This document shows positions 6,041-8,250 of a stretch of DNA of 55,423 nucleotides, piece by piece. Below the pieces are notes generated by a model. That model was not told the DNA's origin. It saw only the letters and a list, made by a program, of their open reading frames with translations, and did no database searches. The translations under genes were made by a program, and so were the position numbers. Numbering within the stretch: the first letter of the stretch is position 1; each line of letters begins with the position of its first letter. Source of the DNA: Bacteroidota bacterium (GTDB lineage Bacteria > Bacteroidota > Ignavibacteria > Ignavibacteriales > Ignavibacteriaceae); the NCBI GenBank assembly GCA_021831685.1, contig JAKBMG010000016.1, positions 1-55,423 on the forward strand, in the 5' to 3' direction.

Positions 6041-6071
6041 ACAATAAACTAAACTTTTAACATAATTTTTT

Positions 6072-6235
6072 AACGCAGCTATTGCGTTGTTCTGAGTCGA
6101 AAACTGGTAATTTTAAGCAATCAAGAACAAGCCTAGAAAGCTGCGTCCAGAAATGGACGCGCTTTCTTATGTCTTTGATTGTGGGCATACCAGTGCCTCG
6201 GCTCAGGATGTAACGGAAGTTGCGTCCTTTTTTTG
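6072..6235 (+). ncRNA. Structured RNA candidate with intrinsic terminator
   Basis: Four nested helices can be drawn by hand. CTGAG 6092-6096 pairs with CTCAG 6202-6206; ACTGGTA 6103-6109 with TACCAGT 6188-6194; CAATCAAGA 6118-6126 with 6172-6181 (one bulge); and GAAAGC-GCGTCCA 6136-6149 with TGGACGCGCTTTC 6154-6166, closed by a GAAA tetraloop with one bulged T. A small hairpin AACGCA/TGCGTT (6072-6088) precedes it. It ends in a terminator (6206-6234): 9 bp stem with two G-U pairs, GGAA tetraloop, then seven Ts. I do not recognise the family. A 6S-like RNA is one guess; a leader of the downstream gene is another. No clear promoter was found. Confidence 0.65.
6206..6234 (+). terminator. Rho-independent terminator ending the RNA candidate
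   Basis: GGATGTAAC (6206-6214) pairs with GTTGCGTCC (6219-6227) around a GGAA loop, followed directly by T7 (6228-6234). Its 3' arm (GTTGCGTCC) resembles the 5' arm of the apical hairpin upstream (GCTGCGTCC, 6141-6148), so GGACGC at 6155-6160 could pair with either. Confidence 0.75.
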
Positions 6236-6298: not shown

Positions 6299-6383
6299 AC
6301 AATTAGGCATTTTGGTTAACGGCAGCGAACCAATGCTTAACTTTAATCTAAAAATCGTTGCCAAACTAAAGTTAGGAGTAATT
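6299..6383 (+). repeat. Conserved 5' leader, copy 1
   Basis: Starts 'CAATTAGGCATTTTGGTTAA' and ends with AGTTAGGAGTAATT just before ATG. It matches the leaders at 7014-7097 and 8167-8250. A stem GGCAGCGA (6321-6328) with TCGTTGCC (6355-6362) sits upstream of the Shine-Dalgarno AGGAG. The same stem occurs in copy 2 with paired base changes. Confidence 0.75.
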
Positions 6384-6968
6384 ATGAAAACATATTATTT
6401 GTTATTTGCAGTGTTCATTGCTTTGTCCGGATTTGCCTCTGCCCAGTTTCAAAACGAAAGCCTTTCCATTTCACAAGCTGATATCAGTAAGGCATATGGC
6501 GATAACGTCATTTCCTTAGATAATCAATTCAATAAAACCTTATTGATTGAAAAACTGGATCCGGGTCATGCTATGCTTATGTCGGCAGTATGGCCTGGTT
6601 TGGGACAATTTTATAATGGTCCGACTGAAACCACAAAAGGTACGATTATGGCTATAGGGCAGGGCGGATTGTTTATTTTAATGATCGTCGGTGCTCTTAA
6701 TCCCAGTGAGCCAACTGTCAGTAATACCTATTCAAGCATTAACGTCAATGTAGCGAGCGCCATTAATCCCTTACTATGGGTCGGACTCATCGGTATGCTT
6801 GGAAATTCCATTTACAGTATCATCGATGCGGGCAATCGGGCCAAAGAGCTTAATGCCGAAGAAGGTTTTTCTTTTCAAATTAATATGTTTAATAATTTAC
6901 CACATTTAATCGGGACAAATATTTCTAATAAGTTCAGTGCAAATTTATCGTTTAAGATTAATCTTTAA
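6384..6968 (+). CDS. Secreted/membrane protein with DUF5683-like segment
   Basis: 194 residues from ATG at 6384, chosen for the AGGAG at good spacing and because translation begins with a clear signal peptide (MKTYYLLFAVFIALSGFASA). Around residues 58-75 'PGHAMLMSAVWPGLGQFYNG' matches the start of DUF5683-type membrane proteins common in Bacteroidota. Two more hydrophobic segments follow ('GGLFILMIVGAL', 'INPLLWVGLIGMLGNSIYSI'). The C-terminus ends in 'NLSFKINL', like an outer-membrane or lipid-facing strand. No function is known to me. It is the first of three island genes with the shared leader. Confidence 0.72.
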   Translation: MKTYYLLFAVFIALSGFASAQFQNESLSISQADISKAYGDNVISLDNQFNKTLLIEKLDPGHAMLMSAVWPGLGQFYNGPTETTKGTIMAIGQGGLFILMIVGALNPSEPTVSNTYSSINVNVASAINPLLWVGLIGMLGNSIYSIIDAGNRAKELNAEEGFSFQINMFNNLPHLIGTNISNKFSANLSFKINL

Positions 6969-6999: not shown

Positions 7000-7020
7000 C
7001 GGTTATACGAAACGTTAGGC
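7000..7020 (+). other. attC-like R' box (CGTTAGGC) at start of a putative cassette
   Basis: CGGTTATACGAAACGTTAGGC at 7000-7020 ends in GTTAGGC, matching the integron core GTTRRRY. Its reverse complement closely matches GCCTAACGTTCTTCAAACCG at 8108-8127, so the two bracket the genes at 7098-8086 as R' and R'' bracket an integron cassette. The left half expected of a full attC is not convincing here. Confidence 0.45.
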
Positions 7021-7097
7021 ATTTTGGTTTAATGGCAATGTGCCAGTGTCTGACTTTAATTTATAAAAACATTGCCAAATTAAATTTAGGAGTCATT
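7014..7097 (+). repeat. Conserved 5' leader, copy 2
   Basis: Begins at the GTTAGGC core and ends AAATTTAGGAGTCATT before ATG at 7098. A perfect 9 bp stem, TGGCAATGT (7033-7041) with ACATTGCCA (7069-7077), lies 11 nt upstream of AGGAG. Relative to copy 1 the stem differs by compensating pairs (T-A to C-G, and T-A to A-T). Confidence 0.75.
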
Positions 7098-7382
7098 ATG
7101 AAAACTCTATTTAAAATTTTCTTCCTCTTTTCCTTCGCATTTTTTCTCGCTTCATGTGCATCATCCACCGAAAGCCTTCAAAGGGCAACAGCCCAACAGA
7201 TTGGAAATACAAGGTTGCAAGATGTTACAATTTATAATGTAAAAAGAGGCGTTTCCACAGTTTCTTGGTACGCAAAAACACCAAATGGTTGTTATGAATG
7301 CGATGCTGATGATATGGTTCGTCAAGTTAATTGTGTAAAAGTTGGTTGCGACAGTTTAAAAATGACCGGGCCAGAAAAATAA
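7098..7382 (+). CDS. Small secreted lipoprotein, unknown function
   Basis: 94 residues from ATG at 7098 (AGGAG upstream). The N-terminus is a lipoprotein signal: hydrophobic run then 'FFLASCASS', with lipobox L-A-S-C and Cys at about 20, so a membrane-anchored periplasmic or outer-membrane protein is expected. The mature part has three further Cys ('GCYECDADDM', 'NCVKVGCD') that could form disulfides or bind metal. I do not recognise the family. It carries the conserved leader and is followed by a strong hairpin. Confidence 0.7.
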   Translation: MKTLFKIFFLFSFAFFLASCASSTESLQRATAQQIGNTRLQDVTIYNVKRGVSTVSWYAKTPNGCYECDADDMVRQVNCVKVGCDSLKMTGPEK

Positions 7383-8173: not shown

Positions 8174-8250
8174 GCCTGTTTTAAATGCAATTAGCAGGTT
8201 GCTTGAATTTAATATGTATAAGCATGGACAAATTAAATTTAGGAGTATTT
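8167..8250 (+). repeat. Conserved 5' leader, copy 3 (diverged)
   Basis: Starts ATTAGGTGCCTGTTTTAAATG and ends AAATTTAGGAGTATTT before ATG at 8251; the last 25 nt match copy 2 nearly base for base. The stem seen in copies 1 and 2 is weak here (only ATGC/GCAT remains). Confidence 0.65.

Follow-up and report, generated by a model that had tools for sequence, protein, structure and literature searches.

At positions 6069-6234 of the window (the whole stretch of 55,423 nucleotides that was analysed), the forward strand encodes an RNA element of 165 bases. It forms a long rod with a pseudoknotted core. The element is probably a cis-acting leader that decides the expression of the downstream gene by transcription termination, and it would represent a riboswitch-like class not described before. 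This reading comes from the comparison of homologous sequences. Covariation supports a conserved structured core, and it likewise supports two mutually exclusive conserved folds that use a common strand.

Structure and conservation of the element

The original prediction described four nested helices between 6092 and 6206, an apical hairpin, a 5' hairpin and a capped hairpin followed by seven T. All of them are present where it placed them, on the forward strand. The 5' hairpin P0 is seen in the sequence at 6073-6077/6083-6087, and in other copies its register is shifted within the same stretch. The base of the rod, P1, lies at 6093-6099/6199-6205 and shows every pair type. It is followed by P2 (6104-6109/6188-6193), where CUGGUA pairs with UACCAG and 99.3% of the cells are paired in 96 sequences. 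P3 occupies 6117-6125/6174-6182, with an extension at 6127-6129/6170-6172. The apical arm P4 consists of 6135-6141/6161-6167 and 6143-6149/6154-6160.

The P2/P2' pseudoknot was absent from the earlier description. P2' is a 4-bp stem, GGCA/TGCC, at 6184-6187/6194-6197. Its six-base loop is the 3' strand of P2 and pairs with 6104-6109. The consensus is GGYA..URCC, and the partner of the loop is the upstream CUGGYA. With a fixed offset of 4 nt, 128 of 160 cells are standard pairs in 40 further loci. The most conserved unpaired letters are the A's after P1 and the U's after the 5' strand of P2, that is, in the pseudoknotted junction. At the 3' end, a local terminator-like hairpin with a GGAA loop (6206-6214/6219-6227) precedes the U-run (T7, 6228-6234).

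Such a structure had been judged unlikely by chance, and folding energy agrees. Two hundred dinucleotide shuffles have a minimum free energy (MFE) of -42.8 ± 4.4 kcal/mol; the element in the window reaches -74.6 (z -7.2), and 0/200 shuffles are as good.

Two covariance models were used: R1, from 28 aligned copies, and the broader R2, from 96 sequences. P2' and the alternative stem PT (below) are helices of neither model; the local hairpin is included in R1. Substitutions in homologues that break the helices had been named as the outcome that would speak against the structure. The opposite was observed. In the 96 sequences, 93.1% of the cells of rod and pseudoknot are paired, and 50 of 50 pairs in P0-P4 and P2' have changed on both sides; these counts lean towards the model helices, since alignments A2 to A6 were fitted to the model. 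The covariation score of rod plus pseudoknot is 0.762, compared with 0.046-0.078 for slid structures. We also compared the Watson-Crick fraction of each helix with shuffles in 43 representatives of less than 70% identity, a permutation test on dissimilar sequences that uses no tree. The z values range from 7.4 (P0) to 20.7 (P1), with 14.7 for P2, 7.9 for P2', 19.4 for the 9-bp part of P3 and 11.5 for the inner part of P4. The local hairpin covaries in the wider group of the window, with z 8.5.

Other pairings were tried and rejected. The P0-tail pairing, which is part of the MFE fold, was considered as a conserved antiterminator. Its sequence is conserved near the window copy and covariation is unsupportive (5' arm of P0 with the 3' arm of the terminator, z 0.7). 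An outward extension of P1 gave z -1.4, and the 5' strand of P4 with the 5' arm of the local hairpin gave z 1.8. A further candidate stands apart from these: an AAAA..UUUU hairpin that would enclose the P2 5' strand and turn P2 into a kissing loop may exist, its letters varying too little for covariation to speak for or against it.

Three copies depart from the common form. L026 and L028 are deletion derivatives of the element. L026 lacks the stretch between the direct repeats GTTGCGTCC, found in the apical arm and in the tail, as if lost by slippage. In L030 (G085:C459), the 5' hairpin is interrupted by an inserted short palindrome, CCTGCC..GGCAGG.

A putative alternative terminator stem

The 3' half of the element can pair with itself. 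In the original prediction, GGACGC at 6155-6160 had two possible partners. Covariation bears out the re-pairing, but it is not confined to these six bases: 6155-6175 pairs with 6205-6227. We call this stem PT. It is about 19 bp long and joins the tail before the U-run to the 3' strand of P4, the strand common to both folds. In the window copy, the fold of the 3' half has 21 PT pairs, 20 of them within the 22-nt tail. The loop of PT contains the 3' strands of P3 and P1 and the P2' hairpin. PT and the rod are mutually exclusive in P4 and the start of P3.

The tail follows the P4 arm of its own copy. In 41 representatives, 4 of them Bacteroidia-type, the mean pairing energy between the 10 nt ahead of the U-run and the P4 3' half is -12.0 kcal/mol when both come from one copy and -8.2 with permuted partners (z -9.9). 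The control, with the 5' half of P4, gave z +1.4. With 65 representatives, z is -11.6 for the last 10 nt of the tail and -12.9 for its upstream part. Column by column in a 100-locus alignment, the signal is weaker yet present (z 5.5). In the 36 Bacteroidia-type loci alone, the tail pairs with its own arm at -13.4 and with the arms of others at -12.7, and its own arm is better in 29 of 36. This difference is small because tail and P4 arm are both conserved there.

An earlier comparison of duplex and local energies favours the duplex, as it has no loop penalty, and it was redone with whole folds over 170 loci. Before counting, we left out 8 of 140 and 2 of 40 loci that had no run of 4 T, together with the truncated L026 and L028 and the interrupted L030. 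When the 3' half is folded alone, PT has at least 8 pairs in 168 of the 170 loci (median 18-19). It beats a tail folded only locally by more than 2 kcal/mol in 168 of 170, or in 167 of 170 when the fold starts 6 nt later.

A U-run of 4 to 9 T is found at the expected place in 132 of 140 loci. The gap between PT and the U-run is 0-1 nt in 121 of the 170 loci, 2-4 nt in 37 and at least 5 in 11; PT is absent in one. The flush ends are mostly in the wider group of the window (82/96), and PT stops a few bases before the U-run in many Bacteroidia-type copies. Of the 36 Bacteroidia-type loci, 25 have a local hairpin weaker than -3 kcal/mol; in the wider group the number is 18 of 96.

PT also bears on the hairpin caps. 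The GAAA and GGAA loops of the original prediction are present. However, they are not special: the apical loop differs among copies, and GRAAG pairs in the alternative fold. The supposed tetraloop GRAAG and the CUUUC..UUAUGUCU of the apical arm are alike across the subgroup of the window because they pair in PT. Comparison and folding together point to a mutually exclusive expression platform.

Distribution of the family

The suggested blastn check found homologues. They are at four places in the source genome, the window copy included, and in 18 of 97 genomes, its own among them. In those 97 genomes the distribution is patchy. R1 adds a weaker fifth place in the source genome. In the class of the window, R1 matches 52 of 294 genomes and 39 of 151 genera, with up to 7 matches per genome (E <= 0.01). 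Across the phylum, 48 of 395 sampled genomes have an R1 match at E <= 0.001, and 29 of the 48 are outside this class. R2 finds the element in 103 of 395 genomes and 63 of 196 genera of the sister class, the class of genome G463 (E <= 1e-4). We infer from the named plasmid carriers that this class is Bacteroidia. The E-values of both models are rough, and the scans of large samples used stricter filters, so that weak matches are lost. Since the element is palindromic, true copies also give weak matches on the opposite strand (19 of the 119 rows of one search, and at least one in the scan of 294 genomes). Loci that come from the same genome or species group do not count as independent.

The named carriers of plasmid copies are Bacteroides ovatus, B. 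finegoldii, Parabacteroides distasonis, Phocaeicola massiliensis, Chryseobacterium shandongense and Rhizosphaericola mali. All seven plasmid records were confirmed with R1. Named genomes were also scanned with a degenerate pattern, which matched 27 stretches. These come from metagenome-assembled genomes (MAGs) labelled Ignavibacteria, Ignavibacteriales, Melioribacter, Stygiobacter, Bacteroidetes or Bacteroidota, and Cloacimonadota or Cloacimonadales. The last two labels account for six stretches in two MAGs, and 6/6 match R1, with mis-binning of single MAG contigs being possible. A degenerate 22-base pattern had 0 matches in viral contigs; it fits the subgroup of the window only and says little about others.

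Position relative to genes

Of 180 loci, 13 have no open reading frame (ORF) of at least 100 aa within 600 nt downstream; in 164 of the other 167, the nearest one is co-directional with the element. By the same criteria, the nearest upstream ORF is co-directional in 67 of 126 loci (54 without one). This difference argues for a cis-acting leader. A same-strand ORF of at least 60 aa follows in 97 of the first 100 loci, and its start is a median 83 nt away. The element appears, from this arrangement, to lie in the 5' leader of co-directional genes. The original prediction listed a cis-acting leader of the gene at 6384 among the candidates to exclude; it is instead the best explanation. That gene (6384..6968, forward strand) encodes an exported or membrane protein of 194 aa. 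Its product has a weak similarity to DUF5683 (E 8.7e-5), with 23 bits, under the Pfam cut-off of 26.7.

The element might otherwise be an independent trans-acting sRNA with its own terminator, spread by duplication, the genes behind it being incidental. Most copies do have a terminator-like end, there are several copies per genome, and copies within a genome have upstream DNA in common. Nevertheless, the co-directional genes and their short distance tell against it, and it is hard to see what a constitutive sRNA would gain from a second conserved fold. We regard this explanation as improbable.

The upstream DNA is best seen in genome G208. Five copies (L099, L104, L108, L116 and L118) have 150 to about 268 nt of upstream DNA in common together with the element. 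Pairwise blastn of these copies found no match in the 3 kb downstream, and nothing is common behind the U-run. The likeness is upstream only, so a promoter-leader unit was copied before unrelated genes, or genes were exchanged behind it. The Bacteroidetes-type -7 box TAnnTTTG is not enriched within about 45 nt before the element. Exact matches number 6 in the -65 bin, which is made up mainly of related copies; 0.37 would be expected for a bin. Inspection of related groups by eye showed a GTTCTTTATAAA-like box some 20 nt upstream of the element, and this box may belong to a promoter.

A second repeated leader was seen in the window at 6303-6384, 7012-7098 and 8204-8246, where three neighbouring genes each have it immediately ahead of their ATG. 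Judged by eye, it has an H-type pseudoknot, GGCA..TTAACGGCA..AACCAATGC..CGTTGCC, which adjoins the ribosome-binding site. By blastn it occurs at three places in the genome, all inside the window, and the copy at 7012-7098 has no Rfam match beyond one at chance level. It is also present behind the element studied here in L007, L009 and L016, and possibly in L014.

Genes behind the element

In the first set, 70 of the 97 first genes were scanned with Pfam; the scans also covered ten proteins of the second set and the plasmids, and 20 of 39 of the third set. The proteins were chosen by eye, so that the class counts are not rates. Restriction-modification proteins account for 7 of 70 in the first set (L127, L130, L146, L151, L168, L170 and L173) and 5 of 20 in the third (L244, L251, L255, L260 and L265). 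A defence system of another kind is represented by ZorA of a Zorya system (L262). Signalling proteins comprise response regulators (L094, L248 and the second gene of L183), the chemotaxis proteins CheB/CheR (L114) and CheW (L180), and PAS or histidine-kinase proteins (L109, L117, L247 and L249). Type IX-secreted proteins follow the element in L097, L110, L115, L145, L167 and L258, SusC with SusD in L185, and a SusC-like protein in L274. There are also an ECF-like sigma factor (L188), RibD_C reductases (L222 and L239), a DinB-type polymerase (L138) and a NYN protein (L162). The second set has more SusC-like, sigma and RibD-like first genes, recognised by eye only. Many of the scanned proteins have no Pfam match. 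The genes have an accessory function in common and no pathway in common, so no ligand is suggested.

Some related loci have the same kind of gene. In the genus of the window and its relatives (L003, L004, L011, L012, L018, L024 and L025), the element lies before a short response-regulator gene; by eye, these genes start alike. Pfam supports the response regulator in L094, which is the same place as L004. In the gut Bacteroidales L193, L194, L222, L223 and L224, a RibD-like gene (annotated as dihydrofolate reductase family) or a deaminase gene is behind the element, and a topoisomerase gene adjoins. The rteR sRNA is near L193 and L194, and RteC-domain genes are near L222 and L223. These five copies sit on CTnDOT-like conjugative elements.

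Comparison with known RNAs

The structured RNA had been assigned to no family, and the proposed cmscan agrees: in the window, no Rfam 15 family reaches its gathering score. The sub-threshold matches are weak and were read as chance; the best, rli48, scores 24.3 bits where the threshold is 100. Twenty loci of distant homologues likewise have no Rfam 15 match at the element; the only family that reaches its gathering score in them is the rteR sRNA (RF04181), which lies nearby. It is an RNA in its own right, encoded on the other strand at a distance of about 570 nt in L193 and 1,380 nt in L194.

6S-type RNAs, including the flavobacterial model, had been named as candidates to exclude. The element resembles them in its long rod. 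However, neither a 6S model nor any other Rfam family matches at gathering score in the window or the 20 distant loci, and the element has several copies per genome and sits before genes. A palindrome acting at the DNA level, such as a recombination site or transposon end, would also account for a long palindromic structure with several copies per genome and a patchy distribution. Against it stand the covarying pairs around conserved loops, the U-run and the fixed orientation to genes. We find either of these identities, 6S-type RNA or DNA palindrome, scarcely credible.

Riboswitch-like leaders are a known kind of RNA. In textbook riboswitches, the sensor lies upstream of the terminator. The element shares with terminator riboswitches the 5' leader position, a conserved pseudoknotted core, a predicted terminator that excludes the alternative fold, and the U-run. 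In contrast, the alternative to the terminator is here the outer arm of the core itself (P4), and the 3' half of the core lies in the terminator loop. New here would be the folding of the sensor into the terminator and the breadth of genes behind it.

Palindromic candidates from Bacteroidetes have been listed before, among them HMP2_1032 (106 bp, near TonB) and HMP2_4205 (132 bp, near TPR genes) (PMC8040213). As described in the accessible text, they share with the element the phylum, the palindromic form, predicted terminators and a suspected cis-regulation. That text describes no alternative fold and no such gene class; the comparison is by description, not by sequence. Such terminator-like candidates might include fragments of the element family. 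Searches of the open literature, including passages of PMC9723704, PMC7366714 and PMC8040213 and with supplementary candidate lists and subscription papers aside, yielded no matching description of the element.

Proposed mechanism

We propose the following model for the leader. In fold A, the 5' and 3' halves pair into the rod (P1-P3-P4) with its pseudoknotted core (P2/P2'). In fold B, the 3' half pairs with itself to form the long PT stem before the U-run, with P2' in the loop. The two folds would interconvert, PT starting from a toehold in the region between P3 and P4, which is partly open. The choice would be biased by a signal; a small molecule or an ion that binds the pseudoknotted junction is the most likely candidate. 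With PT formed, transcription would stop and the gene would be off; the rod would act as antiterminator, giving read-through and a gene that is on. In the subgroup of the window, the local hairpin could terminate in the rod state too. Because of this extra hairpin, the direction of the switch is uncertain.

Two results constrain the model. By ViennaRNA, with the pseudoknot ignored, the rod is on average 12-16 kcal/mol more stable than the halves folded apart, which counts against a purely thermodynamic switch. PT must therefore prevail while the RNA is still being made, unless a factor keeps hold of the 5' half. Moreover, where PT ends 2-4 nt (37 of 170 loci) or at least 5 nt (11) short of the U-run, the arrangement is poor for an intrinsic terminator.

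The stability of the rod makes room for another explanation. A protein or other macromolecule, bound to the RNA or keeping hold of its 5' half, could set the choice between terminator and rod, no small ligand being involved. Such a factor offers an easy route to the terminator, and the genes behind the element are without a common metabolite. On the other hand, no regulator gene was seen adjoining the element in the loci scanned, and the conserved unpaired letters in the pseudoknotted junction are like those of ligand-binding RNAs. We consider this explanation rather unlikely. A translating ribosome on a leader peptide might likewise block the 5' half and free the 3' half for PT. However, the window copy has no ATG in 6069-6152, and we give such an attenuator very little credence.

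Returning to the small-molecule or ion model, a broader form of it is conceivable and advanced tentatively, as somewhat short of probable. In this form the element would be a phylum-wide ligand-sensing riboswitch with a pseudoknotted sensor folded into its terminator, the outer arm being the antiterminator and the 3' half the terminator loop. It would connect one widespread signal to accessory genes across Bacteroidota and Cloacimonadota. These would include restriction-modification, Zorya, SusC/SusD uptake, type IX-secreted proteins, chemotaxis and response regulators, and the cargo of conjugative elements.

If the element switches as drawn, one undescribed RNA class would control acquired and surface-exposed functions. 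It would do so in roughly one in four of the genomes sampled from a major bacterial class, with gut bacteria and their mobile elements among the carriers. The search for a ligand would be clear: the element is small, it has many natural variants, and the read-out is simple (stop or read-through at one U-run). It would also mean that a sensor can be built into the terminator itself, not placed before it.
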